Source of the DNA: Opitutaceae bacterium
Lineage (GTDB): Bacteria; Verrucomicrobiota; Verrucomicrobiia; Opitutales; Opitutaceae
Direction of reading: 5' to 3'
Assembly (NCBI GenBank): GCA_028822375.1
Contig: JAPKDW010000019.1
Coordinates: 1 to 33,201, forward strand
Length of the DNA: 33,201 bases
In this document: positions 4,865 through 22,692 of the stretch, in pieces
Position numbering within the stretch: position 1 is the first letter of the stretch
Layout of the letters: the number at the start of each line of letters is the position of its first letter
Translations under genes and position numbers: made by a program
The notes under the pieces: model-generated
Database searches by the model: none
What the model saw: the letters and a program-made list of their open reading frames with translations, nothing else
What the model was told of the DNA's origin: nothing

Positions 4865-7393
4865 TTGCGCTTCATGTTTTCCTTAGTCTCAAGACTTAGG
4901 CCCCTAATCGGGCTTGTCCTTATCGCTCCGCTACTAACAGCCGAGGCGAGCAAATCTGTTCTAAAATCATTCAAGAGCGAAATTGAGCCGATCCTCGATA
5001 ACTATTGCTACGATTGCCACGGATTCGGAACCAGCAAGGGTGGCGTCACCTTGGATGAATTCACCGCCGACTCGATCGTCGATCACGAGCTTTGGGTACG
5101 GCTTCTCCGAAATACGCGAACTCACATCATGCCTCCAGTCGAGGAAGCGTTTCTCCCAACCGATGAAGAACGGGAACGCCTCTCAGATTGGATTAAATCT
5201 GGTCCATTTGGAATTAATCCCCAAAACCCCGATCCAGGAAAAGTAACTGTTCAACGGCTCAACCGAGTAGAATACCAAAACACGATTCGCGAGCTGATTG
5301 GATTAGAATTCGACACGGCAGACGCGTTCCCGGCAGACGACTCAGGCGAAGGTTTCGACAACATTGGCGACATCCTAACCCTCTCGCCAATGATGCTGGA
5401 AAAATACCTCGATGCAGCCAGCCATATCATCACCGAAGCCGTACCCACACAGGCCCGCATATTGCCCGAGCGCTTATTAGCCGATGAAGAATTAGTGAAT
5501 TTCTTCTCTCCCCCGACAATCGAAGACGACGAAGACAACGACACGCTCCAACTTTCCTTTTACTCCCCATCGACTCGCTCTGCGAAATACGAAATAAAAC
5601 GCTCCGGGAAATACCAAATCGTACTTAACTTCAAACCTGTCAGTTTTTCCCGTTTCCGAGGATTCGACTACAATCGCTGTCGCTTCATATTCAAAATCGA
5701 CGGCGAGATCAAAATCGACCAAGAATTCGAATACGTTTCCGGACGGACATTCGAACACGCCTTTGAATACGACTGGCAACCTGGAGAACACGATTTCACA
5801 GTCGAGGTCGAACCTCTCACATTCGGCTTGGAAAAAATCAAGCGCCTCAAAATGCGGATCGAAAGCATCGCCGTTCAAGGACCTTTCGCGCAGGAGCACT
5901 GGATACAGCCAAAGAACTACAAACGCTTCTTCCCCGGAACCGTCCCCGTTGATGACGTTTCGAGAACCGAATACACACGTCAGCTCCTTGGCAAATTCGC
6001 AACCCGCGCATTCAGACGTCCCGTCGATCGACAAACCGTTGATCAGCTAACCAACCTGGCAAAGCAAATAGCTTCTCAGGAAGGAAACAGCTACGAAATG
6101 GGAATCTCCCAGGCCATGGTAGCGATCCTCGCCTCCCCTCGTTTTCTCTTCAGAGAAGAAAATTCCCTTGAGCCGACAAAAAGAGGCGGACACCCACTGA
6201 TCGACGAGCACTCCCTTGCTTCACGGCTTTCCTACTTCCTCTGGTCATCCATGCCAGACGAACAGCTCTTCCAATTGGCGCAAGAAGGAAAGCTCCGCGA
6301 AAACCTCGACGCTCAAATCCAGCGCATGATGAAGGACAAACGTTCTGAAAACTTCATCGACAACTTCTCAGGCCAATGGCTCCACGCCCGGGATATCCAA
6401 TCCGTCAACATAAGCTCTCTCGATGTTTGGCTCCGCGACCATCCGCAACCCGAAATAATGGCAGCCAAAGAAGCCTACTCCATCGTCCGCGAAATCCCGG
6501 AAAACAATCGTACCCCGGAACAAAAAGAGACCTACACACGAACGAGAGCCATCATGAAAAAGCTCTACGACTTTGACCGACCGGAGTTAAAACCTCCTCT
6601 GCAACGCGCAATGCGCGAGGAAACCGAGCTCTATTTTAATTACGTAATCCGGGAGGATCGAAACCTCAAAGAACTGCTGGATAGCGACTATGCCTTCCTG
6701 AACAATCGACTTGCCGAACACTACGAAATCGACGGCGTAAAAGGCTCCAAATTGCGGAAAGTATCGCTCGAGCCCGGAAGCCCTCGAGGCGGTGTGCTCA
6801 CGCAAGGAACAATCCTCGCATACACTTCCAACCCTACGCGAACCTCCCCCGTCAAACGCGGCGTCTTCATCCTGGAAAACATCCTCGGAACTCCCCCAGC
6901 TGCCCCTCCGCCAAATATTCCTGCCCTCGAAGATGTAGCCAGTCCCGAGGAAATCCAAAAAATGAGCCTGCGCGAATCGCTCGCTCTCCACCGCGAAGAT
7001 CCGCTCTGCCGATCCTGCCACAATCGGATGGACCCCTTGGGTTTGGCATTCGAAAACTTCAATGCCATGGGCATTTGGCGCGATGCCGAACTCAACCAAC
7101 CCATAGAAACAGACGGCAAACTAATCACCGGCGAAACCTTCGACTCCATCCAGGAAATGAAGCGAATACTTGCAAATGAACGCATAAACGACTTCTATTA
7201 CTGTTTCAGCGAAAAGCTGCTAACCTATGCCCTAGGCCGTGGAATCGAATACTATGATACCGGAACCGTAGACCATCTCGTCGAAACGCTCCAAAAATCC
7301 GACGGTCGCCCTTCGGCCTTAATAAAAGAAATCATTCGCTCCACACCGTTTCAAAAGCGTCGAAATCCAAAATTTAAACCAGATCATCAATGA
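4865..7393 (+). CDS. DUF1592/DUF1588-type exported c-heme protein (PSCyt1 family)
   Basis: This 842-residue protein has the domain set seen in Planctomycetes and Verrucomicrobia. A signal peptide (hydrophobic LIGLVLIAPLLTAEA) is followed by a short cytochrome-c-like segment with heme motif C48-Y-D-C51-H52. Next come a DUF1587-like region (about 125-190), a beta-rich carbohydrate-binding-like insert (about 225-350), DUF1595-like (about 366-430) and DUF1592-like (about 415-625). A DUF1588-like region (about 640-740) carries a second CxxCH at C715/C718/H719, and a DUF1585-like end (about 750-835) finishes the protein. Biochemical function is not established for the family; the heme motif suggests periplasmic redox chemistry. 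The first start is a TTG at 4865; an ATG at 4874 is equally plausible and keeps the signal peptide. It overlaps the next gene by four bases (ATGA), implying translational coupling. Confidence 0.9.
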   Translation: MRFMFSLVSRLRPLIGLVLIAPLLTAEASKSVLKSFKSEIEPILDNYCYDCHGFGTSKGGVTLDEFTADSIVDHELWVRLLRNTRTHIMPPVEEAFLPTDEERERLSDWIKSGPFGINPQNPDPGKVTVQRLNRVEYQNTIRELIGLEFDTADAFPADDSGEGFDNIGDILTLSPMMLEKYLDAASHIITEAVPTQARILPERLLADEELVNFFSPPTIEDDEDNDTLQLSFYSPSTRSAKYEIKRSGKYQIVLNFKPVSFSRFRGFDYNRCRFIFKIDGEIKIDQEFEYVSGRTFEHAFEYDWQPGEHDFTVEVEPLTFGLEKIKRLKMRIESIAVQGPFAQEHWIQPKNYKRFFPGTVPVDDVSRTEYTRQLLGKFATRAFRRPVDRQTVDQLTNLAKQIASQEGNSYEMGISQAMVAILASPRFLFREENSLEPTKRGGHPLIDEHSLASRLSYFLWSSMPDEQLFQLAQEGKLRENLDAQIQRMMKDKRSENFIDNFSGQWLHARDIQSVNISSLDVWLRDHPQPEIMAAKEAYSIVREIPENNRTPEQKETYTRTRAIMKKLYDFDRPELKPPLQRAMREETELYFNYVIREDRNLKELLDSDYAFLNNRLAEHYEIDGVKGSKLRKVSLEPGSPRGGVLTQGTILAYTSNPTRTSPVKRGVFILENILGTPPAAPPPNIPALEDVASPEEIQKMSLRESLALHREDPLCRSCHNRMDPLGLAFENFNAMGIWRDAELNQPIETDGKLITGETFDSIQEMKRILANERINDFYYCFSEKLLTYALGRGIEYYDTGTVDHLVETLQKSDGRPSALIKEIIRSTPFQKRRNPKFKPDHQ

Positions 7394-8763
7394 ACCGCCA
7401 ATCATTCGCAAATCAGCTAAATCGGCGAAACTTTCTCAAAGGCGTCGGAGCAAGTCTCGCCATGCCAGCCTTTCAATCCATGGTTCCCGGCAACCTTCTT
7501 GCCGCCAAGACTCTCCGCCAGGTAGCGACAACGGGTTCCGGAGCCCCTCTCCGAGCCGCCTACGTTTTCTTTCCCAACGGATCCATTCCAGACCTTTGGT
7601 GGCCGCAAGGCAAAGGAAGTGCCTTCTCGTTCAAAGACACGCTCAAGCCGCTCGAGTCGCTTCGCGATTCCGTCCAAGTCCTTAGCGGATTGGATCAACT
7701 AAATGCCACCGCTGGAAAAGATGGCGGCGGCGACCACGCTCGCGGCAATAGCGTATTCCTAACGAGCGTACGTATAAAGAAAAGCGCTACAGACTTCAGA
7801 GCCGGCACATCCATCGACCAAGCGATTGCCAGCGACGTCGGCCATATGACTCGATTTCCGTCGCTTGAGCTAAGCTGCGACCCCGCTAGACGCGCCGGAG
7901 CCTGCGACACTGGCTACTCATGCGCCTACCAATATAATCTTTCTTGGAAAACGCCGACCAATCCGATGACCCCCGAATCGAATCCGCGCAAGGTATTCGA
8001 ACGACTCTTCGGCGAGGGTTCGCATGGCGAGCGATCGGAAAAGACGAAGCAACGAATGGTGAATCGACGCTCCATTCTCGACTTCGTAATGACCGATGCC
8101 CAGCGCATGCAAAAGAAACTCGATCACCGCGACCGGGAAAAGCTCGAACAATACCTGACGGGTATTAGAGAAGTAGAATCTCGTATCCAAAACTTGGAGC
8201 GATTCGGATCAACCGTCGACCCGGACATCGCAACGCCCGAGGGCATTCCATTTAGCCATGGCGAGCACATCGACATCATGTTCGACATGATGACCCTAGC
8301 CTTCCAAACCGACTCTACCCGCATTGCCACCTTGATGCTCGCCCACGATGGCGACAATCGTTCCCACGATGAGATCGGCATCCCCGAAGGTCATCACGAA
8401 CTAACGCACCACCAAAACAAAGCCGACCGGATCGCCAAAGTTGGCCGAATCGATCAGTGGTACGCGCAAAAATTCGCTTCGTTCCTAACGGGTTTGGATG
8501 AAATCAATGACATTGACGGCAAGTCCATGCTTCACAATTCCATGATCCTATACGGAAGCGGGAACGCCGACGGAAACCGACACACCCACGACAACCTGCC
8601 ACTCGTTTTGGCAGGACATGGTGGCGGTAACCTGAATCCTGGGAACTATCGCAAATTCGGTTCGAAACCCGCGGCCAATCTCTTCCTCAATATGGCCGAC
8701 AATATGGGTGTCCAAAACCTACCTCGCTTTGGAGATTCCACCGGTCGATTGGCGAGTATATAA
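7390..8763 (+). CDS. DUF1552 protein with twin-arginine-like signal
   Basis: This 457-residue protein starts on the ATG that overlaps the stop of the DUF1592 gene. The N-terminus RRNFLKGVGASLAM is a twin-arginine-type export signal, suggesting the protein folds, possibly around a cofactor, before export. The body is typical of DUF1552: FPNGSIPDLWWP (about 58-69), GGDHARG, SLELSCD, and the C-terminal block GSGNADGNRHTHDNLPLVLA, which recalls the alkaline-phosphatase-like fold of the related DUF1501 proteins. The family's reaction is unknown. Its near-constant pairing with DUF1592 heme proteins suggests the two act together outside the cytoplasm. Length and motifs look intact. Confidence 0.9.
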   Translation: MNRQSFANQLNRRNFLKGVGASLAMPAFQSMVPGNLLAAKTLRQVATTGSGAPLRAAYVFFPNGSIPDLWWPQGKGSAFSFKDTLKPLESLRDSVQVLSGLDQLNATAGKDGGGDHARGNSVFLTSVRIKKSATDFRAGTSIDQAIASDVGHMTRFPSLELSCDPARRAGACDTGYSCAYQYNLSWKTPTNPMTPESNPRKVFERLFGEGSHGERSEKTKQRMVNRRSILDFVMTDAQRMQKKLDHRDREKLEQYLTGIREVESRIQNLERFGSTVDPDIATPEGIPFSHGEHIDIMFDMMTLAFQTDSTRIATLMLAHDGDNRSHDEIGIPEGHHELTHHQNKADRIAKVGRIDQWYAQKFASFLTGLDEINDIDGKSMLHNSMILYGSGNADGNRHTHDNLPLVLAGHGGGNLNPGNYRKFGSKPAANLFLNMADNMGVQNLPRFGDSTGRLASI

Positions 8764-9345: not shown

Positions 9346-9397
9346 TGATCTATTACTAAGGTCATACTATTGATCTATTAATAATCATATCAGTTTT
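9346..9397. promoter_or_regulatory. Candidate operator region of the 9.5-14.8 kb cluster
   Basis: Exact direct repeats TGATCTATTA occur at 9346-9355 and 9371-9380, a 25-base period. Immediately after them lies ATAATCATATCAGTTTT (9381-9397), which matches 15 of 17 bases of ATTATCATATCACTTTT (15974-15990) in front of the GntR/LacI-type regulator gene. The region lies between the divergent NHL relic and the first cluster gene, a natural control position. Protein binding is inferred from this match only. Confidence 0.45.
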
Positions 9398-9538: not shown

Positions 9539-10585
9539 ATGAAAGATACACCGCTCCGCACATCCGTAATCGGCAGTTACCCATTTCCAGGTTGGTTGGA
9601 ATTCGCCTCCCAAAACCTCGATCAATTTGGAGTAAACGACATCAGTGAAATGCAGGAGGATGCCGTTATCGCCGCCATTCACGACCAAGTTTCTGCCGGC
9701 CTCGACGTAATCACCGACGGAGAACAAACCCGATTCGATTTCAACCTCTCTTTCTACGGCTACATAAAAGGCATCGAACTCGAAAGCGCTTCCCCTCGCC
9801 GGTTCGGACCTCCTGCTCACGATCAGCGCGGCAAGCATGCGATCACCGCCGAACTAGAAGCCCCCAATGGACTCGGAGCCGTCGAAGAATTCGAGCGCCT
9901 AAAACGCCTTGCCCCAGAAGGTCCGAGCCTCAAGGCCAGTATTCCCGGTCCCTTTACCATGAGCGGGCGGCTACTCCCCAATGATCAATATCCAGATCGC
10001 CAAGCGATCACCGAAGCGCTTCTCCCTCTAGTCCGCAGCGAAATCGAAAAGCTCGTCGAAGCGGGCTGCAAAGAAATCTGCGTAGATGAACCATCCATGA
10101 GCTGTTACGCCTATAAAGCCGACACGAGCACCTTCGTCGATCTCTTCAATCGCACCGTCGAACCCGCGGTCGGCAAAGCCCGCATCTGTTCTCATCTATG
10201 CTTTGGCAACTACAAGGGACGAGCCGTCGGAAAACGCACCCCACGCGACATGTTTCCAGCCTTCCTCGATATGCACGTCGACGAAATGCATATCGAAATG
10301 TGTACCACCCACTTCGACTACCTCGACCTCATTGAAGAGATCTGCAAACGCAGGGACGCTGCAATCGGTATCATCGACGTCAAAAGCTACTACATCGAAA
10401 CGCCCGAAGACGTAGCCGCAATCATCCGCAAATGCTTGGAGTTCGCCCCGGCCGACCGACTCGTATTCGCCCCCGATTGCGGCCTCTCGCAAACAGCCCG
10501 CTGGGCCTCCCGACAAAAGCTAAAGAATATGGTAGCCGGCGCAAACATCGTCCGGCGCGAGCTGGGACTTCCCAACGCAAAATGA
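9539..10585 (+). CDS. MetE C-terminal-domain-like zinc methyltransferase (cobalamin-independent family)
   Basis: This 348-residue protein matches the catalytic (C-terminal) barrel of cobalamin-independent methionine synthase without the N-terminal barrel. The zinc site appears complete: His219 and Cys221 (SHLCFGN), Glu253 (MHIEMC) and Cys314 (FAPDCGL), corresponding in order to the His, Cys, Glu and Cys ligands of MetE. Other conserved blocks are the N-terminal SVIGSYP, DGEQTR (60-65) and VDEPS (182-186). Stand-alone core proteins of this type transfer methyl groups to thiols, from donors that differ between subgroups; neither donor nor acceptor can be read here. It is the first gene of the cluster and overlaps the next by four bases (ATGA at 10582-10585). 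No strong ribosome-binding site precedes the ATG. Confidence 0.85.
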   Translation: MKDTPLRTSVIGSYPFPGWLEFASQNLDQFGVNDISEMQEDAVIAAIHDQVSAGLDVITDGEQTRFDFNLSFYGYIKGIELESASPRRFGPPAHDQRGKHAITAELEAPNGLGAVEEFERLKRLAPEGPSLKASIPGPFTMSGRLLPNDQYPDRQAITEALLPLVRSEIEKLVEAGCKEICVDEPSMSCYAYKADTSTFVDLFNRTVEPAVGKARICSHLCFGNYKGRAVGKRTPRDMFPAFLDMHVDEMHIEMCTTHFDYLDLIEEICKRRDAAIGIIDVKSYYIETPEDVAAIIRKCLEFAPADRLVFAPDCGLSQTARWASRQKLKNMVAGANIVRRELGLPNAK

Positions 10586-11427
10586 AGCCCGCTTTTCTAA
10601 AAGGCGAAGAGCTCCTCGTCGACATCGAATCAGCCCGTAGCGATAAATCCAATACGCTACATACGTGGTGGTTAGGGCAAAGCGGGTTTCTCGTTATGTC
10701 CGCCGGTAAAACCGTTCTTTTCGATCCCTATCTGTCGGACTCGCTCACTCGAAAATACGCCCCAACCGACAAACCGCACACGCGCATCACCGAGCTCGTC
10801 TTAGATCCCGGGACGCTCGAAGGCATCGACATCGTAACCTCGAGTCACAATCACACCGACCACCTCGACAAGGAAACGCTAATCGCGCTCGTTCAAGCGA
10901 ACCCTGAACTAGACTTCGTCATCCCCGAGGCCAACAGAGCATTTATAGCCGATCGAATCGAACGCGATCCCTCTCTACCAATCGGGCTCAACGACGGACT
11001 AAGCACGACCGTGAAAGGCGTAACCTTCCACGGCATAGCATCCGCCCATGACGAACTCAAAACCAACGAAAAAGGCGAGCATCACTTCATGGGATTCGTC
11101 ATCGAACTCGGTCCTTGGAAGATCTACCACAGCGGCGATACACGACTCTACGACGGACTCGTTTCCCGCCTCAAACCGTTCAATCTCGACTTGGCGTTTC
11201 TTCCAATAAATGGATACAAACCCGAACGCCGTGTTGCCGGAAACCTCAACTCGGAGGAGGCCGCTCAATTGGCCGACGAGTGCTCTATAAAAACCGTTGT
11301 CCCTCACCACTACGATCTATTTGAATTTAACACCGCCGACCCGGTAGATTTCGAAAAGGCCTGCCAATTTAGAAACGTCAACCATCACGTCCTACAAAAC
11401 GGTCAACGACTCACGCTCGAGCGATAA
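10582..11427 (+). CDS. Metallo-beta-lactamase-fold hydrolase, UlaG-like
   Basis: The 281-residue product starts at the ATG overlapping the methyltransferase stop; the frame is open further upstream, but that part is antisense-like and lies inside the previous gene. The metal site reads SHNHTDHLD with His89, His91, Asp93 and His94, followed later by HSGDTRLYDG and VPHHYDLF, which supply the other expected ligands. GQSGFLV and LFDPYLSD near the start are typical of the branch containing UlaG (L-ascorbate-6-phosphate lactonase) and related lactonases. Substrate is unknown; a sugar-lactone or phosphoester role would fit the neighbours. It is cytoplasmic, with no signal peptide. The next gene begins 45 bases after its stop. 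Confidence 0.85.
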   Translation: MKPAFLKGEELLVDIESARSDKSNTLHTWWLGQSGFLVMSAGKTVLFDPYLSDSLTRKYAPTDKPHTRITELVLDPGTLEGIDIVTSSHNHTDHLDKETLIALVQANPELDFVIPEANRAFIADRIERDPSLPIGLNDGLSTTVKGVTFHGIASAHDELKTNEKGEHHFMGFVIELGPWKIYHSGDTRLYDGLVSRLKPFNLDLAFLPINGYKPERRVAGNLNSEEAAQLADECSIKTVVPHHYDLFEFNTADPVDFEKACQFRNVNHHVLQNGQRLTLER

Positions 11428-11472
11428 ATCCGACTAGGACTCAAAATTAACAGTATTCATTTTCCTAACGCT

Positions 11473-12252
11473 ATGTCTCACACGCAAACTTATCTCCAAA
11501 AATCACGCGAACTTATCGAAATCGTCTCCGCGCAAGAAGACAATATCGCCAAGGCCGCCGACTGGTTTGCCAAAACGATTTTAGCCGATCGCATGGTCCA
11601 TGTTTTCGGTTCCGGTCATAGTCGCATGATGACCGAAGAAATGTGGCCACGTTACGGCTCTTTTCCAGGCTTCAACCCAATTGTGGAGCTTTCACTCAGT
11701 TTTCATAATCTCGTCGTCGGCTGCAACGGACAGCGACAAGCAATGTTTCTCGAAAACGCCAGCGGCCTGGCTGAACAGATCCTGAGGAATTTCGAACTCA
11801 CTGAAAAAGACACAGCTCTCGTCATATCCTCCAGTGGCTGTAATCGCGTACCGATCGAAATGGCCGAGCTTTTTCAAAAGAACGGCATCAAGGTGGTTGC
11901 CCTTATCAGCCAACTCCACTCCGACGCCTCCACCACCAAAGACACTCGCGGCTTAAAGCTCTCCGACTTCGCCGATCTCATCCTCGACACTGGAGCGCCC
12001 GTAGGCGATGCCATGATAAAAATCGAAGGATTGGATACACCGGTTTCACCAGGATCTACTCTTGGCGGATGCCTCGTCGTCAATTCCATCAAAGCAGAAG
12101 TCGCTCAACGACTCATCGATGCCGGCAAACCGCCGAAGGTCCTAACTGCTGGAGCGCTCATTGGAGCCGAGCGAGCGGACGAAATATTCCAAGCGGCCTA
12201 CGACGAACACGGTCGTCGCCTATCGCGATACTACGCGACCCTCGGCGAATAG
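11473..12252 (+). CDS. SIS-domain sugar isomerase-like protein (UPF0309-like)
   Basis: This 259-residue cytoplasmic protein has a SIS (sugar isomerase) fold of the UPF0309 type. Visible landmarks are VFGSGHSRMMTEEMWPRYG (about 43-61) and VISSSGCNRVPIEMA (about 117-131), the two Ser/Gly-rich phosphosugar-binding turns of the family. Relatives isomerise, sense or cleave phosphorylated sugars or amino sugars, but this branch is poorly characterised. It sits in the middle of the cluster, before the FAD oxidoreductase relic, which begins 11 bases after its stop. Length is normal for the family. The exact reaction is not claimed. Confidence 0.83.
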   Translation: MSHTQTYLQKSRELIEIVSAQEDNIAKAADWFAKTILADRMVHVFGSGHSRMMTEEMWPRYGSFPGFNPIVELSLSFHNLVVGCNGQRQAMFLENASGLAEQILRNFELTEKDTALVISSSGCNRVPIEMAELFQKNGIKVVALISQLHSDASTTKDTRGLKLSDFADLILDTGAPVGDAMIKIEGLDTPVSPGSTLGGCLVVNSIKAEVAQRLIDAGKPPKVLTAGALIGAERADEIFQAAYDEHGRRLSRYYATLGE

Positions 12253-12263
12253 AAACCATTCCA

Positions 12264-12540
12264 TGAGCCTTCGAATCATCAATCGATCGATCGTTCCGAC
12301 TCTAGCCGAAGTAGACATTCTAGTGGTCGGAGCGGGCTCCGCAGGTTGCGTCGCCGAAAAAGCGCCGATGGAAACGACGAAACTCATTGGGAATACCTAC
12401 CCGATGGTAGCGCCTACTGAGTTCCTTACAGAAGCCTAGTCGCCCGCGGTCGCGACGATCTATGGGTTGCCGGTCGTTGCTTCAGCGCCACGCATGACGC
12501 CCACGCATCCTCCAACTTAATCAAAATTGAACCGTGTTAA
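12264..12540 (+). pseudogene. Relic of an FAD-dependent oxidoreductase gene
   Basis: The ATG at 12264 opens a frame whose residues 18-32 (VDILVVGAGSAGCVA) are the N-terminal Rossmann FAD-binding motif. It then loses register. In another frame, from about 12361, comes ETHWEYLPDGSAY, a TGA stop at 12418-12420 where relatives have Gly, and then VPYRSLVARGRDDLWVAGRC followed by FSATHDAHAS, the typical C-terminal block of the FAD_oxidored family. The sequence diverges after HAS and ends at TAA 12538-12540. Intact members are several hundred residues long, so a central region of several hundred codons has gone. At least one frameshift, one nonsense codon and one large deletion make it non-functional. 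It lies exactly where a cluster gene would be expected, between the SIS and first dehydrogenase genes. Confidence 0.88.
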
Positions 12541-12614
12541 TATTTGATTCTTAAGTTCTCCCGCTTTAATAAATACTCACTAACAACCCACCCCGTACAA
12601 CCAACTCCCTCTTC

Positions 12615-13700
12615 ATGAACCCACAAGAGAAAAACTGGAAAATCGTCGGCATCAATTTCGATCACATGCACATGGGCGATCTTCTTCGCCAAGTTCACGA
12701 ACACCCGTCTGCAACGATCGCCGGCATTTGCGACGACGTTCCCGCGCGGATGGAAGAAGCCATCGCCAATTTCTCGATTCCCGCGGAACGGGTTTTCACC
12801 GATATCGATGCTTGTATGAAAACGGCCGACCCAGACCTCGTCATCATCTGCGCCTCAACTGCTCGACACGCCGAATACGTCGAAAAGATCTCCCCTTACG
12901 GGAAACACCTCTTCATCGAAAAGCCGTTTGCAGACAGCCTAGCCGCCGCCGATCAAATGAACGCCGCCTTGGCTCCCGGCCAGCAATTGATAATCAACTG
13001 GCCCCTTCGCTGGTATCCTTCCCATGCGACCGCTTTCCGTCTAATCAGCGAAGGTCTCATAGGGTCCGTCCGTGAAGTACACTACTATGACGGAAATCGA
13101 GGTCCTCTCGCTCACGGAGCAGACAAAATCGCCAAAGACGTTACGCCCGAACTTAAAGCCGAAAGCTGGTTCTACAAAAAGAGCGGAGGCGGCGGAGCCC
13201 TCCTCGACTACCTCGGATACGGCACCACGCTCGGAGCTTGGTTCAACGGAGGCAAATCACCCGTCGACGTCACCACCGTCACCGGCGGCGATCCCAATCT
13301 AGAAGTCGACGAACACAGCATAACCATCTGCCGGTACGCTGACGGCACACTCTCGAAATTCGAAACCAAATGGGGGACCTTCACCGATCCCTGGACACAT
13401 CAACCCCAACCCAAATGCGGCTTCAACATCGTTGGAAGCGAAGGCACTATCGCCTCCTACGATCTAGAACCGACGATTCACGTCCAAACCCAATCGAAAC
13501 CAGAAGGCGAAACCATTGCTTGTGATGATTTAGTTCACCCTTTTCACGCCCCCATCCCCTACGTCCTCAACCGCATAGAAAACGGACTTGAAATCGATGG
13601 CCCACTAAGCCCGAAGATCGCTCGCATCGGACAACAAATCGTCGACGCAGCCGTCCTCAGCGCAACAACGCGAACAACCGTTTCTCTCAAAAATCTATGA
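12615..13700 (+). CDS. Gfo/Idh/MocA-family dehydrogenase (first of two)
   Basis: This 361-residue NAD(P)-dependent oxidoreductase acts on sugars, polyols or related compounds. The N-terminal Rossmann fold spans about 1-130 (IVGINFDHMHMGD, then GICDD). The lysine of the family's EKP motif is present (FIEKPFADS, about 97-105). The C-terminal half contains NWPLRWYPSH and SGGGGALLDYLGYGTTLG, where many relatives have a G-x-H. Here the motif reads GYGT, so the catalytic histidine may be replaced; that is a real departure or a subgroup trait. It overlaps the second dehydrogenase by four bases (ATGA at 13697), implying coupled translation and perhaps a shared pathway step. Confidence 0.87.
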   Translation: MNPQEKNWKIVGINFDHMHMGDLLRQVHEHPSATIAGICDDVPARMEEAIANFSIPAERVFTDIDACMKTADPDLVIICASTARHAEYVEKISPYGKHLFIEKPFADSLAAADQMNAALAPGQQLIINWPLRWYPSHATAFRLISEGLIGSVREVHYYDGNRGPLAHGADKIAKDVTPELKAESWFYKKSGGGGALLDYLGYGTTLGAWFNGGKSPVDVTTVTGGDPNLEVDEHSITICRYADGTLSKFETKWGTFTDPWTHQPQPKCGFNIVGSEGTIASYDLEPTIHVQTQSKPEGETIACDDLVHPFHAPIPYVLNRIENGLEIDGPLSPKIARIGQQIVDAAVLSATTRTTVSLKNL

Positions 13701-14827
13701 GCCCAGAAACCAACTACACCCTAGAAAGTTATCAAGAGGTCAAGCAGCTCGAGGCCCCAAACCTCGATTACAAACCACAGCTTCCAAAAAGCTACCGCCC
13801 AAAAATCGGCCTTATCGGTTGTGGTGGCATCACAATCCATCACCTCAATGCCTACAAAGCAGCCGGACTGAAAGTTGTCGGTTTATGCGATTTGAATGAA
13901 TCCAAAACGCACGAGAGACGAGACTCGCACTATCCTAACGCAATTTGCTACCAGGACTACAATGAACTGCTAGCCAACCCAGAGATAGATGTAGTCGACA
14001 TCGCCCTACATCCAGCTCCCCGAGTTGCGGCAATCGAAGCTGCTCTCAATGCAGGCAAACATGTCCTCAGTCAAAAGCCATTCGCCCTCGACCTCGATAT
14101 TGCGGAGCGCCTAGCCAAGCTAGCCGAATCCAAAAACCTGAAGCTCGCTGTCAACCAAAACGGTCGCTGGGCTCCCTACGTCCGCTATATGCAGCGGGCC
14201 ATCAACGCAGACCTGATAGGCGAAACAAACACGGTAAACATCTACCTCAACTGGGACCACACTTGGATCCAAGGCACCCCATTCGAATCGATTCACCACA
14301 TCATCCTCTACGACTTCGCGGTGCACTGGATCGATATGGCAGTCAATTTTTTCCCGACCCAATCAGCCGAACGCGCATTCGGAACCGCCCGCAAAGCCAA
14401 GAATCAAACACTTAATTCTCCCCTACTCGGCGGAGCCACAATACAATTCGGCAATGGCGTAGCCAATCTCGCCCTCGACGGACAATGCTCCCAAGGAGCC
14501 CTGGAACGCATCGTCATTACGGGCGACAAAGGAGTCCTTACCGCCACCGGCGCCGTAACCAAAATCTCCGAAGTCACGCTTGAAACCGCCGAAGGCATCG
14601 CCACTGCCCAACTAGAAGGCGCTTGGTTCGACGACGGATTCCAAGGAGCTATGCTGGAATTGCTCTGCTCCATCGAAGAAGATCGCGAACCCTTCAATTC
14701 CGCTCAAAACAATCTCGCTACCCTCGCCAGCGTATACGCTATCATCGCATCAGCCGACAGCGGAAAAGCCGTCCCAGTTGGAGAAAACCGCCAACTCGGC
14801 GAAAATGGCCAACCCCGATCGCGTTAA
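13697..14827 (+). CDS. Gfo/Idh/MocA-family dehydrogenase (second of two)
   Basis: This 376-residue relative of the previous product has a clearer dinucleotide motif: KIGLIGCGGITIHHLNAY (about 36-53) and VVGLCDLNE. The EKP position reads SQKPFALDLD (about 122-131), keeping the lysine. Substrate-domain landmarks are AVNQNGRWAPY and HHIILYDFAVHWIDMA, where the conserved His follows a D-F-A-V pattern as in many active members. Cytoplasmic, with no signal peptide. The two dehydrogenases are divergent enough that they are more likely to act on different intermediates than to be a recent duplication. It is the last gene of the cluster, and a perfect 28-bp inverted repeat follows 21 bases after its stop. 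Substrate unknown. Confidence 0.87.
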   Translation: MSPETNYTLESYQEVKQLEAPNLDYKPQLPKSYRPKIGLIGCGGITIHHLNAYKAAGLKVVGLCDLNESKTHERRDSHYPNAICYQDYNELLANPEIDVVDIALHPAPRVAAIEAALNAGKHVLSQKPFALDLDIAERLAKLAESKNLKLAVNQNGRWAPYVRYMQRAINADLIGETNTVNIYLNWDHTWIQGTPFESIHHIILYDFAVHWIDMAVNFFPTQSAERAFGTARKAKNQTLNSPLLGGATIQFGNGVANLALDGQCSQGALERIVITGDKGVLTATGAVTKISEVTLETAEGIATAQLEGAWFDDGFQGAMLELLCSIEEDREPFNSAQNNLATLASVYAIIASADSGKAVPVGENRQLGENGQPRSR

Positions 14828-14848
14828 CACTACTTTCGAAAAGGCTTA

Positions 14849-14916
14849 CCCACGAATAACACGAATTTTCACGAATCAGTCCAAAATCATTCGTGAAAAT
14901 TCGTGTTATTCGTGGG
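14849..14916. repeat. Perfect 28-bp inverted repeat between convergent genes
   Basis: Arms 14849-14876 and 14889-14916 are exact inverted copies around a 12-base spacer. Within an arm the unit ACGAAT recurs three times. Lying between the convergent dehydrogenase and regulator genes, the hairpin could end or protect both transcripts, although there is no T-run. Its ATTCGTG/CACGAAT composition differs from the GTAGGAGCGG elements, so it is a second repeat family, probably also dispersed in the genome. Confidence 0.92.
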
Positions 14917-14964
14917 CAATAAAGCAGTTCGTCACTTTCCAATACGAACGGCGTGCCGCATCCA

Positions 14965-15960
14965 TCACAAACTTCCTCGCATCACCGGACGGGGAGCCAA
15001 AATCCGCGTGATTGCCGTAGACGTATCGCCCGAAATTCTTTTTTGAGCAACCTCCACGACGTTCTTCGCCAGCTCGTCCCAGGGGATCGAAATGGTTGTC
15101 AAATCCAGCTGCTCCGCTACCGGAGCATCATCGAAACCAATGACTCGCAACCCTACCGATCGACCCTTCTTGCCAGCTACATCCATCAAAGCCTGCGCCA
15201 GTCGATCATTTGCGCAAAACACCACTTTAGGTTTTTTTTCCAACAAAGGCCGAGCCGCCAAAAGTCCATCATCGTAAAACCATGATTCCGCAAAATGAAC
15301 TTCTGCCCCAGGAATCGCTTCTTGAAATCCCCTCACGCGATCCAAGCACCGCTGATCCCCTTTCGGTCCACCGAGAATCATCGCAACCGCATCCGGAGCA
15401 ATCGACCGCACCAACTCTCCCGCCGCAATGCCGCCCGAATGATCGTCCACGCTCACCGCATCGCAATACACCGCCGACAAACCTTTTGGAGGCGCCTGAT
15501 TAATAAGCAGACAGTACCGTTCTTCTTTCCGGATCAATTCCTGAGCTTCAGAACATTCCCAAAAAATAGGAAAACTCGAACCGCTCACTCGACTGACCGA
15601 ACCACCCCATCGCACACGGGCCTGAATCCCTGCCTTCTCGAAGCCATCCTTCAAACGAGCCAACAAGAGCGCCCCGAAACTATCCTTCACCCGCGCCCGT
15701 TCATTGAAAATCAATTCCACACCCCGCCACTGCGGCGTCTCTCCCCGAAGGAAAGTACCGCTCCCCGGTTTGCGCGTAAGATATCCTTCCGCCACCAACT
15801 CTCGGATCAACGTATCCGCCGTTTGATAACTGATACTGAAACGTAGCCCCAAGGCGCGATTCGAAAGAAAACGACTCCCCGGCAAATAGTAGCCATGCTC
15901 AATCCGGCGAATCAATTTCTCCTTAACATCTATGACTTTTTGCGAACGAGGACGGGCCAT
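14965..15960 (-). CDS. Transcription regulator: GntR-type winged helix with LacI-type sensor domain
   Basis: The 331-residue product joins an N-terminal GntR-like winged helix (about 8-72, with GYYLPGSRFLSNRALGLRF and EGYLTRKPGSGTFL) to a periplasmic-binding-protein-like sensor (about 80-320, with VDDHSGGIAAGELV, AMILGG, VVFCANDRLAQALMD and RVIGFDDAP). AraR of Bacillus has the same combination. Such proteins repress sugar genes until a sugar binds. The gene converges on the 9.5-14.8 kb cluster, making that cluster the obvious target. This is supported by a 17-bp motif in its own upstream region that recurs before the first cluster gene. Start ATG at 15960; the product looks full length. Confidence 0.9.
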   Translation of the reverse strand: MARPRSQKVIDVKEKLIRRIEHGYYLPGSRFLSNRALGLRFSISYQTADTLIRELVAEGYLTRKPGSGTFLRGETPQWRGVELIFNERARVKDSFGALLLARLKDGFEKAGIQARVRWGGSVSRVSGSSFPIFWECSEAQELIRKEERYCLLINQAPPKGLSAVYCDAVSVDDHSGGIAAGELVRSIAPDAVAMILGGPKGDQRCLDRVRGFQEAIPGAEVHFAESWFYDDGLLAARPLLEKKPKVVFCANDRLAQALMDVAGKKGRSVGLRVIGFDDAPVAEQLDLTTISIPWDELAKNVVEVAQKRISGDTSTAITRILAPRPVMRGSL

Positions 15961-15973
15961 TTAGGACGCATTT

Positions 15974-16002
15974 ATTATCATATCACTTTTACTGTCAACT
16001 GT
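15974..16002 (-). promoter_or_regulatory. Candidate promoter/operator of the GntR/LacI-type regulator
   Basis: Upstream of the ATG at 15960 the minus strand has TTGACA (+ strand 15993-15998), an exact -35 consensus, followed by an AT-rich stretch (TGATATGATAATAAAT) that could hold a weak -10. On the + strand, ATTATCATATCACTTTT (15974-15990) matches 15 of 17 bases of the motif at 9381-9397. ACTGT is directly repeated at 15991-15995 and 15998-16002. Overlap of the motif with the promoter would suit autorepression. This is prediction only. Confidence 0.45.
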
Positions 16003-18804: not shown

Positions 18805-21800
18805 CTACGGCAGCTCATGTACTTCAATCAGCACAATACCTGTGTCGCTATTTACGTCGCTGACGATCACCGTATAAAGACCTGGCTCGAGCTCGCGTAC
18901 CATTGCGGAATCTAAGCTTTTCTCGTCCAGAATCGACGTATTCACTTCCTCAGACGATGCCGTAATAAGGAAGCCATTTTCATCCTCCCAATCATCGTTC
19001 ATCGCAATTCTATCTTGTCCCCTATAAAGCGCCATTTGAGGATCTGATAGTACTCCGGAAACTTTTCGCTTAAGAAGCTCCGGACCCAAAGCTCGAATCA
19101 ATACTCGCTTAGGATCCTGACCGGTAATAACGAATCCGGCGATCGCCACCTCTTGGCCCGTCGAGGCACGTAAACGTGTCGATATATTAGCCAAGCGCGT
19201 TTCGATGCTCTCGCTTGAGGCATCGAACACCTCGATTAAACCAAGTCCAGTTCCTCTGTCGACTCCAGACAAAACGACCGTATATAGGCCCGGTTCAAGT
19301 GTTGTCAAAATCACAGCTTCGTCAGGATCCGCAGGAGTTGCGGCGCCAACGCTTAGGCCAACCGAATCGATCGTTTCCGAGTTCAGTTCCTCGCTCCAGT
19401 TATCCTGAGACAAAATCATTTCACCTTTCCAATTGTGAAGCGTCAGTTTTGGATCCGCTAAAACACCTTCGATATTCGGATCCCTAGCCGCCATGGACTC
19501 ACCCAATCCACGGATGAGCACGCGTCTTGACTGCGTGCCAGTGATTATAAAGCCGGCAATCATTACATCTGCGTCAACTCCCACAAATCCGCGAGTCGAA
19601 ATATTGATTAGAGCTTCGCGAATCATCCGAACACGCGTGGAGCCCACTAATATCGACCCATTGGCATTTGCCACTTCAACCGAATACGAACCCTCGTGCT
19701 CGGAATCCATCGCTTCGATAAACACTGAACGAGAATCGCCGCCCGAAAGCGGATTCCCGTCCTTGTACCACTGATACGAAACACCCGTTTCGTCCTCGAC
19801 TTGAACGCTCAGCTCAAGACGCGTTCCCTCGATCGCTTTTTTCTCGATAGGCAATGCCGAGGCAATCGGAGCTCCAGGTCGAGGCGCTATATCCAAAACA
19901 TGCAGATACACTCCTGTGCCGCTTTTATTAGTGACTTCGACTAAGACTTCGGATCGACCTGACTGAGTTGGCGTTCCCGAAACGACACCCGTACTCGTAT
20001 CGATACTCAAGCCTGCCGGCAATCCACTCGCCGCGAACAAGGTCGGATTACGCGTAGCGGTGATAGTGAACTCAATAGCATCTCCCGCAATCGCTTCGAT
20101 CTCTCCCGGATCGGAAATCACCGGCGTCAACCAGCTCGGATCTTCTTCGACCAAAATAGTCAACCGCGACAACCCAAAACTGCGATCGGCTCGAAAATCG
20201 TTTCCATCGATAGCGATGTAATAGATCTCGCCAACCTGCACGTCAAAAGCAACGCGACTCGAAAGAGCGCCACCACTATCGTCGTTTTTCGCCAACAAAC
20301 TCAAGGCTCCAATCGATTGGCCTCCGTACACCGCTAATACCGTATCGAAATCGCTTCCGAAAGTTGTGATTTCCGCGTGACCTGAACGTGTCGCGGTCCA
20401 ACGCCACCACAAAGATTGGCCAATAGCGCTTCCGCCATGATCGGGTTCACCATTCTCTTTAGTCGCTTGTTGCGTAAACGACACATCCTCAAACGCATCC
20501 GAAACGATGCTACGAGCATCTTCGAAATCGTCATTCTCGGCCATCGCAACCGTTAGCCCAATTTCGCCAAACCCGTCATTCCATCCATCGACCGCGATCT
20601 TATACGTCTCGCCTTCTTGAGCATACAAAGTAAGAGCGCTTGTCCAAACCCCCGTACGTTCATCGTCATCATTCGAATCGATCAATTGAAGCGCTTCCAA
20701 GCTACTACCAGTGTATACCGCTAACAGCGTATCGAAACTGTTGCTAGCTGAGGTCGAAATCGTCACATTGCCGCTCAAAGGAGCCTTCCAACTCCACCAA
20801 ACCGACTTCGACCCAAACGTATTCGCTACATGATCCGGTTCGCCAGATTCGCGAGTAGCAGCGATGTTCTCACCCGTCGCGATGACATTGATACCTTCGA
20901 TTTCCAGAGCCTTTGCAAAATCGTCATTTACCACGGTTTGACCAAGACTGAGGCTTATATTTCCCGAAGCGCCGAACAACCCGTCAACCGCAATTCGATA
21001 TACCCTTCCCGCCTCTGCATTGAATCCTAGCGAAGCTCCACTATGAGTTGGCGATACGTCACGATCCTTAGCGACTAGTTGAAGCGTATCCACATTTTCG
21101 CCCTGATATACCGCAAGCATCGTATTGAAATCGCTTCCCGCCGACGTCAACTCCGCAAAGCCATCCGTATCCGCAGTCCAACTCCACCAAACCGTCTGGC
21201 CTGTTCCCTCAGCGTCATGCGTTCCCTCGCTCGCTTCCATGGTTGCTGTAGCGTTGAAACCAGAAACAACCAAAGGCGAATTCAAAACCGATGTTGCATT
21301 TGAAAAATCGTCATTAAGCGGTCTGGGCATTTCCACCTCGAGGGCCCGTGAAAGATTCAGACGCCCTCCAACGCGGCAACGCCTCGCCAAACTTTCCAAT
21401 GTATCCGTCGATGAATACAAACGATTCAAAATAGTAGCCATCGATTCATCGGGGAAACGCGTTATCATCAACGCAATCGCGCCACTGACGAAAGGAGTCG
21501 CCATCGACGTTCCGCTCAAAGCCCTATAATCGTTATCCGAATTGAAATAGGTCGAATTGATCCCTACACCCGGCGCCGCGAGCTCAACCTCGGATTCGCC
21601 GTAATTTGCGAAGCTCGCGAAACCATCCCGTTTGTCAGTCGCCGTAACGCTAACCACATTGGGATAGGAATAAGAAGACGGATAATTTGGCTGATCGTCA
21701 TTGTTGCTGCTTCCATTGCCAGCTGACGCTATAAAATAAATTCCGGCTTCACTCGCCTGCTCTATCGCATCGCCCAACAAGGGATTGAAATCCAAACCAC

Positions 21801-22692
21801 CCCAGCTGCTATTGATGATATGGGCTCCTTGTTCGCGGGCGTAGTTGATACACTCTATCGCATCCGAATCGCTGCCTTCACCGCTCGAATTAAGAAATTT
21901 CAAAGCCATCAACTTGATATTCCAGGCCACTCCAGTTACCCCCAATCCATTATTGCCAACCGCCCCAACGATACCTGCCACGTGCGTACCATGACCCAAA
22001 TCATCCATTGGATCGCCTTCAGTTTCAGGCGTACGCTCTCCATCTACTCCAACCGTGTTGATTCCATGAATGTCATCGATGAAGCCATTCCCATCGTCAT
22101 CCAACCCGTTGCCAGCAATTTCACCGGTATTTACCCACATGTTCGCAGCCAAATCTTCATGCGTGTAACGAACGCCCGAATCGAGAATCGCTACCACGAC
22201 ATCCGGCGCCTCGTTAACGACATCCCAGGCTTCGCTTGCGCTTACGTCCGATCCGGCGATTCCACCCAGTTGCCCGGCGTTTTCGATTCCCCACTGCTTG
22301 CCATCCTGCAACAACGTATCATCCGGTAAAACGGACGCTTTTCTAATGTAATTATAGGAAACGCGCTCCAACAAACCGGATCGCTTATAGGCCGCAATCG
22401 CTTCTTCGAGAGACTGCTTCTCCTCAACCTCGACCAGCGCAACTCGAGGCAAGGTCGAATATCCACGCTTAATGCGGCCTCTCGCCACCTTATGAGCTCT
22501 ACTCAGCGGGGCGAATCGACCCCCGGTAGAGTGTGGCAAAATAAGATCGCCACGCATTTTGATAAGCAATTCGCCAGCTACAACTCTGCGGCCATTAGGA
22601 TCAGTCGCCACTTTCTCCGCCCCGACGGCCAAAGTCGACCATACGACGAAGAGCCAAAGGGCTCTAAAACCTTTGTTTTTCAATATGCTCAC
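18805..22692 (-). CDS. Secreted subtilisin-like (S8) serine protease with propeptide and repeated C-terminal domains
   Basis: This 1295-residue exported protease starts on a GTG at 22692, ten bases after the recombinase stop. A signal peptide covers about 1-25 and a fervidolysin-like propeptide about 30-118. The S8 domain (about 130-450) has Asp171 (AILDSG), His234 (GHGTHVAG), oxyanion Asn326 (SAGNGS) and Ser396 (SGTSMATP), so it should be active. Three copies of a beta-rich domain follow (about 460-586, 589-717, 720-845), each opening NDDF and carrying a WW.W core and an LAVY block. Then come a putative-Ig region (about 860-935), an Ig-like region with QWYKDG (about 945-1020) and two copies (1028-1157, 1167-1295) of a domain with the pattern IST...AGF.ITG..RVLIR.LG. 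Such tail domains are common in verrucomicrobial exported proteins and may serve sorting or surface attachment, a guess. Confidence 0.93.
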   Translation of the reverse strand: MSILKNKGFRALWLFVVWSTLAVGAEKVATDPNGRRVVAGELLIKMRGDLILPHSTGGRFAPLSRAHKVARGRIKRGYSTLPRVALVEVEEKQSLEEAIAAYKRSGLLERVSYNYIRKASVLPDDTLLQDGKQWGIENAGQLGGIAGSDVSASEAWDVVNEAPDVVVAILDSGVRYTHEDLAANMWVNTGEIAGNGLDDDGNGFIDDIHGINTVGVDGERTPETEGDPMDDLGHGTHVAGIVGAVGNNGLGVTGVAWNIKLMALKFLNSSGEGSDSDAIECINYAREQGAHIINSSWGGLDFNPLLGDAIEQASEAGIYFIASAGNGSSNNDDQPNYPSSYSYPNVVSVTATDKRDGFASFANYGESEVELAAPGVGINSTYFNSDNDYRALSGTSMATPFVSGAIALMITRFPDESMATILNRLYSSTDTLESLARRCRVGGRLNLSRALEVEMPRPLNDDFSNATSVLNSPLVVSGFNATATMEASEGTHDAEGTGQTVWWSWTADTDGFAELTSAGSDFNTMLAVYQGENVDTLQLVAKDRDVSPTHSGASLGFNAEAGRVYRIAVDGLFGASGNISLSLGQTVVNDDFAKALEIEGINVIATGENIAATRESGEPDHVANTFGSKSVWWSWKAPLSGNVTISTSASNSFDTLLAVYTGSSLEALQLIDSNDDDERTGVWTSALTLYAQEGETYKIAVDGWNDGFGEIGLTVAMAENDDFEDARSIVSDAFEDVSFTQQATKENGEPDHGGSAIGQSLWWRWTATRSGHAEITTFGSDFDTVLAVYGGQSIGALSLLAKNDDSGGALSSRVAFDVQVGEIYYIAIDGNDFRADRSFGLSRLTILVEEDPSWLTPVISDPGEIEAIAGDAIEFTITATRNPTLFAASGLPAGLSIDTSTGVVSGTPTQSGRSEVLVEVTNKSGTGVYLHVLDIAPRPGAPIASALPIEKKAIEGTRLELSVQVEDETGVSYQWYKDGNPLSGGDSRSVFIEAMDSEHEGSYSVEVANANGSILVGSTRVRMIREALINISTRGFVGVDADVMIAGFIITGTQSRRVLIRGLGESMAARDPNIEGVLADPKLTLHNWKGEMILSQDNWSEELNSETIDSVGLSVGAATPADPDEAVILTTLEPGLYTVVLSGVDRGTGLGLIEVFDASSESIETRLANISTRLRASTGQEVAIAGFVITGQDPKRVLIRALGPELLKRKVSGVLSDPQMALYRGQDRIAMNDDWEDENGFLITASSEEVNTSILDEKSLDSAMVRELEPGLYTVIVSDVNSDTGIVLIEVHELP

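Follow-up and report, generated by a model that had tools for sequence, protein, structure and literature searches.

The window analysed here, a 33,201-nucleotide stretch of contig JAPKDW010000019.1 from an Opitutaceae bacterium (assembly GCA_028822375.1), carries an operon in which a stand-alone MetE core is encoded together with sugar-type enzymes, next to a convergent sugar-type regulator. We found that these genes belong to a recurring cluster whose composition is secure: an SDR dehydrogenase, a sugar kinase, a SIS phosphosugar protein, an FAD oxidoreductase, the MetE core, a UlaG-like hydrolase, a PTE-family protein, two Gfo/Idh dehydrogenases (Gfo1 and Gfo2), often a permease, and a regulator. 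In our reading, to which we give a probability of about 0.4, the cluster would serve the catabolism of an O-methylated sugar, with the MetE core moving the methyl group to homocysteine; both the substrate and the methyl donor are inferred. The window would then hold one regulated operon of this widespread sugar-catabolic pathway, in a trimmed copy.

Conservation of the gene cluster

Genomes are given G numbers, the source genome being G000, and fetched loci (n = 203) are given L numbers. The permease aside, all genes of the cluster, with a ROK protein as the kinase, were present in L062, L116 and L119, and most of them were also found in L013, L020, L032, L118 and L121. A ketohexokinase-family gene replaced ROK in L118 (PF25270) and L161 (tblastn). 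The permease, of the nucleoside-H+-symporter type, was encoded in or beside the cluster in L019, L114, L118, L119 and L121, and genes of the same type followed Gfo1 in L155 and L159. The PTE protein of L062 came nearest to phospho-furanose lactonase, scoring 141 bits against a cut-off of 630.

Genome contigs were scanned with the MetE core, and the best 80 of 209 relatives were kept as loci. The tree of 81 MetE rows contained ten phylum-level groups, with 46 rows from Verrucomicrobiota, 14 from Planctomycetota, five each from Gemmatimonadota and Latescibacterota, two from Bacteroidota and one from each of five other groups; four rows fell in no group. At least one cluster partner lay near MetE in nine of the ten groups; none was seen near MetE in the sole Acidobacteriota locus (L072).

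Neighbouring genes were counted in the 30 of these 80 loci that have at least 8 kb on both sides of MetE, using identity thresholds that we set ourselves and queries partly taken from the same loci; the opposite strand of the same loci served as the only control. On the MetE strand, UlaG was found in 20 loci, SDR in 18, SIS in 14, a second SIS type (SIS2) in eight, ROK in 13, AKR in six, Gfo1, FAD oxidoreductase and PTE in five each, Gfo2 in four, and PhyH and DAAO in three each. On the opposite strand the regulator alone appeared, in four loci. UlaG was directly 3ʹ of MetE in 48 of the 76 loci (out of 80) with at least 900 bp downstream, and a SIS protein lay within 5 kb in 35 of the 63 with at least 3 kb upstream.

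A distinct form was seen in Latescibacterota and Gemmatimonadota (L025, L030, L033, L035, L043, L047, L048, L049, L051 and L057), consisting, where the contig shows them, of the MetE core, the second SIS type, ROK and an aldo/keto reductase. Six of these ten loci had PhyH and DAO-type genes, and L048 alone had UlaG.

Within the order, 372 genomes were profiled for the MetE core (E ≤ 1e-100) and Gfo1 (E ≤ 1e-80), with the best five candidates per genome scored. The MetE core was present in 21 genomes, Gfo1 in 38, and both in 20. Gfo1 was therefore found in 20 of the 21 MetE-core genomes versus 18 of the 351 others (Fisher p = 1e-21, uncorrected for relatedness); in some of these 18 it stood in quite other surroundings. 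The lone MetE-core genome without Gfo1, G193, is 75% complete. Judged by contig names, the two genes shared a contig in 16 of the 20 genomes. UlaG followed MetE directly in 20 of the 21 genomes, and in the exception, G096, the contig ends 326 bases later. The preliminary description of this locus had named genes that fail to travel together as evidence against it, and synteny and genome profile did not refute it. Chance clustering was rejected on the strand counts and the same profile.

The cluster resembles the 3-keto-glycoside pathways represented by the BT_2158 and BT_2159 NCBIfam families in its paired Gfo/Idh enzymes, to which L138 adds a Gfo/Idh and TIM-barrel pair. It differs from them by its additional kinase, SIS and MetE-core genes, and the window proteins scored 26-52 bits against family cut-offs of 650-750. 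The L138 pair (10086-12222, in the G400 cluster) encodes a secreted-looking Gfo/Idh protein and then a TIM-barrel protein with a signal like that of twin-arginine translocation (TAT); genes resembling this pair, judged by eye, lie beside L032, L040 and L112. GH78 alpha-L-rhamnosidase genes were found directly 5ʹ of more distant Gfo1-Gfo2 pairs in L151 (6844-9549) and L154 (7153-9852), a possible hint at rhamnosides.

Regulator, operator-like sites and terminator

An operator-like site common to the MetE operon and the regulator gene suggests that the operon is co-regulated. The pattern TWATNATCATATCANTTT had exactly two exact matches in the 4.56-Mb source genome, one 5ʹ of MetE and one 5ʹ of the regulator gene, a count that is circular when taken alone because the pattern was derived from these two sites. 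At two mismatches one further match was obtained, and a reversed control pattern gave one. The best shared 18-mer agreed at 15 of 18 positions and was equalled by 6 of 150 shuffles. Taken alone this is weak, and the case rests on the position of the sites in relatives and on the genome scan.

Eighteen related loci were scanned with a shorter pattern at up to two mismatches (L005 and L165 being one locus, and L111 and L112 two loci of one genome). A site lay directly 5ʹ of the regulator, MetE or SDR gene in 13 of them; L006, L062, L121, L126 and L127 had no site or an unrelated one. Similar sites were located 5ʹ of MetE in L001, L003, L005, L111, L162 (two mismatches) and L165, and directly before the regulator gene in L001, L020, L042 (a planctomycete), L112, L116, L119, L139, L144 and L202. 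In G400, the site sits between the regulator and SDR. Relatives of the regulator itself were encoded next to the cluster, or next to its Gfo genes, in L001, L003, L005, L020, L042, L062, L116, L119, L121, L139, L144, L202 and others.

When ten genomes were scanned, G039 gave no match to the operator pattern, and two-mismatch matches in G118, G128 and G209 were no commoner than those of the reversed control. Since the control is as frequent at two mismatches, weight can be given only to sites that match exactly or with one mismatch, or that adjoin cluster genes. No convincing operator-like site was found at the SDR-ROK locus of the source genome. In G002, an extra exact site (C167:21039) lies about 60 bases from the contig end, behind the same PSD and DUF1552 genes as in the window, and most likely represents the MetE upstream region again.

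The hairpin between the operon and the regulator gene is probably a two-way terminator: positions 14830-14960 fold at -54.8 kcal/mol (z = -9.8). A 16-mer of the hairpin was absent from the 203 fetched loci save L182, which is the window's own region.

The operon in the window

The preliminary description had placed five same-strand genes against a convergent GntR/LacI-type regulator. Their coordinates were confirmed (Table 1), the ATGA overlaps are present in the sequence at 10582-10585 and 13697-13700, and the family names agreed with Pfam (Meth_synt_2, Lactamase_B_2/3, SIS_2, GFO_IDH_MocA twice, and GntR with Peripla_BP_3). The start of the UlaG-like gene at 10582 was our choice, the mechanical open reading frame beginning at 10432. 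Of the six cluster proteins, only the SIS protein exceeded a curated NCBIfam cut-off (NF002805). The extent of the cluster had to be revised: it is larger than first described, the window copy is trimmed, and the decayed FAD gene, the two operator-like sites and the hairpin had been overlooked.

Table 1. Features of the operon and its regulator in the window.
Feature	Position	Strand	Details
Operator-like site TAATAATCATATCAGTTT	9379..9396	+	142 nt 5ʹ of MetE-core start codon
MetE core (cobalamin-independent methionine synthase catalytic domain only)	9539..10585	+	348 aa; PF01717 E=2e-27
UlaG-like metallo-beta-lactamase-fold hydrolase	10582..11427	+	281 aa; PF12706 E=2e-19
SIS-domain protein, PRK02947/UPF0309 type	11473..12252	+	259 aa; NF002805 255.9 bits vs cut-off 135
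Decayed FAD-dependent oxidoreductase gene	12278..12510 (about)	+	Frame change and stop vs intact orthologue
Gfo1, Gfo/Idh/MocA dehydrogenase	12615..13700	+	361 aa; PF01408 E=4e-17
Gfo2, Gfo/Idh/MocA dehydrogenase	13697..14827	+	376 aa; PF01408 E=8e-21; mostly directly 3ʹ of Gfo1
Hairpin between convergent gene ends	14849..14916		Perfect 28-bp stem; arms 14849-14876 / 14889-14916
Regulator: GntR-type helix-turn-helix and LacI-type sugar-binding domain	14965..15960	-	331 aa; PF00392 E=1e-7, PF13377 E=5e-12
Operator-like site TTATTATCATATCACTTT	15972..15989	+	11 nt 5ʹ of regulator start codon

The window holds a trimmed copy of the cluster. In the remnant of the FAD gene, residues about 5-29 of the intact orthologue are joined straight to residues 340-391, in another frame and with a stop. 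In the sister species G002 (L001) the gene has a different internal deletion, and it is intact in the cluster of L013, L020, L026, L032, L042 and L062 (tblastn; Pfam FAD_oxidored checked for L062). A structure model of the FAD oxidoreductase (predicted local distance difference test, pLDDT, 73.8) gave generic FAD-enzyme matches only, the best at a TM of 0.44. In L001, Gfo2 and the regulator are also separated by a damaged PTE-family gene (5535-6374); the window has none. The SDR and ROK pair of the source genome lies on another contig (C245, L126), about 2.4 kb from an opposite-strand permease gene of the nucleoside-H+-symporter type.

The trimmed copy is not dead, because the ratio of nonsynonymous to synonymous substitutions (dN/dS) against the sister species was low across six genes. 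It was 0.029-0.073 for MetE, UlaG, SIS, Gfo1, Gfo2 and the regulator, and 0.057 for the neighbouring isocitrate dehydrogenase, with dS at about 0.9-1.3, near saturation. The genes are under strong purifying selection.

Upstream of the operon, positions 4865-8763 encode a PSD-type protein and a DUF1552 (HXXSHH) protein (Pfam), and a very similar pair is located near the end of G002 contig C167 (L198). A subtilase of 1295 aa with Ig-type domains is encoded at 18805-22692.

The MetE core and the core methionine synthases

In the excerpts of PMC7857596 (Price et al. 2021) that we used, the core methionine synthases have the zinc ligands H641/C643/E665/C726 and the homocysteine-binding residues S433/E484/D599. 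In our alignment, S13, E62, D183, H219, C221, E253, C314 and K282 were invariant in 96 of 96 rows (90 distinct), so that the zinc ligands and homocysteine-binding residues that mark MesA-MesD are both complete throughout. The window protein shares with MesA-MesD a single catalytic domain, giving a full Meth_synt_2 match with Meth_synt_1 below cut-off over the same residues, and differs from them in sitting in a sugar operon; the sequence comparison covered MesD only. The nearest PDB entry was 3RPD (E = 1.5e-30, 109.8 bits), which the same excerpts describe as a MesD structure. This score falls short of the 560 bits or more given there for MesD, an approximate comparison as that threshold was set with a different query. 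Against the best NCBIfam model the protein scored 200.8 bits (cut-off 406), and it stayed below the cut-off of all eight methionine synthase models matched.

The features of folate-dependent MetE were absent. Position 282, lysine in all 96 rows, is histidine in the aligned Thermotoga MetE and alanine in 3RPD; the Thermotoga histidine is presumably the equivalent of E. coli MetE His707. Nor is there a separate N-terminal folate-binding domain.

The complete zinc and homocysteine-binding residues would also suit an ordinary methionine-forming enzyme that uses a corrinoid or other donor and sits in the operon through a tie to growth or one-carbon metabolism, the sugar being left untouched. Corrinoid proteins are regarded as the methyl source of the known core synthases (excerpts of PMC7857596), and a corrinoid protein is encoded in the G039 operon. 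However, the source genome already has a MetH-sized B12 protein (a 1275-aa frame), and the MetE core is therefore not obviously needed for methionine supply. It also co-occurs with Gfo1 across genomes, usually adjoins UlaG, and stands behind the same operator-like site as the sugar-type regulator. We consider this explanation to lie on the unlikely side. The source genome encodes a second, distant MetE-core paralogue (27% identical; G000:C8:13550-14518), and similar proteins were found in many relatives.

UlaG-like and SIS proteins

The HxHTDH motif of the UlaG-like protein was invariant in 12 of 12 aligned sequences and matches the HxHxDH metal motif of UlaG, the L-ascorbate-6-phosphate lactonase. 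Its model (pLDDT 90.4) had its best fold matches in 3bv6 and the UlaG structures 2wyl/2wym, at a TM of about 0.8. It differs from UlaG in its identity of about 20%, its score of 55.8 of the 306 bits set for the UlaG equivalog (NF008688), and its neighbour, a MetE core. The known genomic context of UlaG is the ascorbate PTS.

The PDB entries nearest to the SIS protein were 3cvj and 9eol, the latter being SCO4393/NagS. Its orthologues keep H53, S54, R64, E94, S119, S121 and D179 of NagS in 43 of 43 cases (positions from alignment) and thus resemble NagS and other UPF0309 SIS proteins, as described in excerpts of PMC12680351, in the phosphate-binding serines, His, Arg, Glu94 and Asp179. They differ in genomic context and at two residues: all 43 have methionine in place of S91, and one of 43 keeps N228. 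According to the same excerpts, NagS is limited to Streptomycetaceae, and homologues of roughly 30% identity lack its activity. As S91 and N228 are not kept, the SIS protein probably handles another phosphosugar than NagS does, and a plain NagS pathway was judged unlikely.

These residues also bear on the idea that the pathway serves an N-acetyl amino sugar or a nucleoside-like glycoside, with MetE-UlaG handling a side product. The idea draws on the nearest characterised SIS relative, which acts on N-acetylglucosamine (GlcNAc)-6-phosphate (PMC12680351, excerpts), on a NagB gene (315 bits, cut-off 237) that adjoins the regulator in L020, and on the permease, which belongs to the nucleoside H+ symporter family. 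The substitutions at S91 and N228, and the inactivity of the roughly 30%-identical homologues, argue against it, and we hold it to be distinctly unlikely.

Possible link to methyl groups

The G039 operon (L121) retains MetE and UlaG and has, between ROK and SIS, genes for a B12-binding corrinoid protein and two URO-D proteins. G053 has a counterpart of the first URO-D gene (65%) at the same place. In G400, this URO-D is again at that place, and neither MetE nor UlaG is present in the 20-kb stretch; MetE had no match genome-wide at 1e-100, and UlaG was sought in that stretch only. MetE-UlaG and the remainder of the cluster are on separate contigs in G265. MetE-UlaG therefore behaves as a separable module, and a methyltransferase-rich gene family recurs near it in a few relatives. 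Across the 372 genomes, URO-D was found in four, all among the 38 with Gfo1 (p = 9e-5, uncorrected for relatedness); in G052 and G234 it was on another contig.

A strict replacement of MetE by URO-D was rejected, as G053 and G039 have both and G370 has neither in the cluster; replacement was seen in G400 only. Corrinoid-dependent demethylation by L121-type proteins in the source organism was likewise rejected, no URO-D match being found in its genome at E ≤ 1e-10. The L121 operon resembles the MtaA, MtbC and MtgC systems in combining URO-D proteins with a corrinoid protein and differs from them in that its proteins fall below the NCBIfam cut-offs, few relatives carry them, and the window has none. 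The URO-D and dedicated corrinoid proteins that a corrinoid methyltransferase system would have with the pathway are encoded in G039, with scores below the methyltransferase-model cut-offs, and were not found in the source genome.

The methyl part of the preliminary description gains indirect support from the invariant zinc and homocysteine-binding residues and from the operons of a few relatives, which include URO-D-family and corrinoid genes. Two points speak against a zinc thiol-alkyltransferase that, like epoxyalkane:coenzyme M transferase, would open a non-methyl electrophile such as an epoxide or unsaturated sugar, the sugar being unmethylated: all three homocysteine-binding residues are invariant, and the genes in relatives point to methyl groups. 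This alternative has precedents in the epoxide coenzyme M transferase of the superfamily (excerpts of PMC10418091) and in the SIS relative NagS, which makes an unsaturated sugar phosphate (excerpts of PMC12680351). We regard it as improbable.

Proposed pathway and its difficulties

In the pathway that we favour, the substrate would be an O-methylated sugar or glycoside. The dehydrogenases would oxidise the sugar, the kinase and the SIS protein would handle a phosphorylated sugar, and the two lactonase-like hydrolases, UlaG and PTE, may open lactone intermediates. Two genes, those of the MetE core and UlaG, would make up a step that can be separated from the rest: homocysteine, or a thiol like it, would be activated at the zinc site to accept the methyl group, either from a methyl carrier or from an activated intermediate, and the demethylated product would be hydrolysed by UlaG. 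As a precedent, another enzyme, Bmt, catches the methyl group of dimethylsulfoniopropionate (DMSP) and betaine directly on homocysteine (excerpts of PMC12366255).

Several points weigh against O-methylated sugar catabolism. The chief difficulty, as we see it, is that stoichiometric transfer would make more methionine than the pool can take, unless little flux passes this way or the methionine is consumed. The preliminary description had proposed a sugar-type pathway with methyl transfer, and the conserved, apparently co-regulated sugar-type cluster agrees with it; nothing, however, identifies the substrate, which we infer to be a methylated sugar. UlaG was not directly downstream in 28 of the 76 loci with room for it, and in 14 of 80 loci, of which several are short or cut, MetE was the sole cluster gene seen. 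The cluster of G370 lacks MetE, UlaG and URO-D alike (MetE and URO-D were unmatched genome-wide at 1e-100, and UlaG was sought locally only), so that the pathway can do without methyl removal.

The evidence from methyl genes in relatives has its own weaknesses. URO-D is in the operon in three relatives only (G039, G053 and G400), and URO-D proteins are not all methyltransferases. Those of G039 pass Pfam and reach 36 and 115 of the 235 bits for MtaA/CmuA; the corrinoid protein passes Pfam and stays below the cut-offs of its best models (208 of 370 bits, MtgC). In the source genome, besides the missing match to the L121 URO-D, the only B12-binding match was the MetH-sized frame. That genome also has no orthologue of the FAD oxidoreductase (best match 29%) and no PTE match at E ≤ 1e-15, so that the pathway there is incomplete or different.

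A more specific form of the O-methylated sugar pathway would be independent of both cobalamin and folate. The dehydrogenases, with the FAD enzyme where present, would turn a methoxy sugar lactone into an ascorbate-like O-methyl enediol lactone, which would give its methyl group to zinc-bound homocysteine, yielding methionine, and the UlaG-like protein would open the freed reductone lactone. We offer this as a speculative and improbable version. If it is true, the core methionine synthases of the cluster would make up a fifth clade, one supplied directly from sugar catabolism.

Significance

Plant, algal and bacterial glycans commonly contain methylated sugars, and to our knowledge little is known of aerobic routes for removing the methyl group from sugars. 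As the preliminary description had supposed, no pathway with this gene combination was found described in the portion of the open-licence literature covered by our search. We regard it as a sugar-catabolic operon whose core methionine synthase belongs to an unassigned clade. If O-methylated sugars are indeed the substrates, the cluster would provide the gene set, regulator and operator with which to test one aerobic demethylation route. It would also add to the core methionine synthases a clade for which the operon partners could reveal the methyl donor. Should the methyl reading prove wrong, this is still a conserved sugar pathway of some ten genes whose substrate we did not find described, and as such a useful target.

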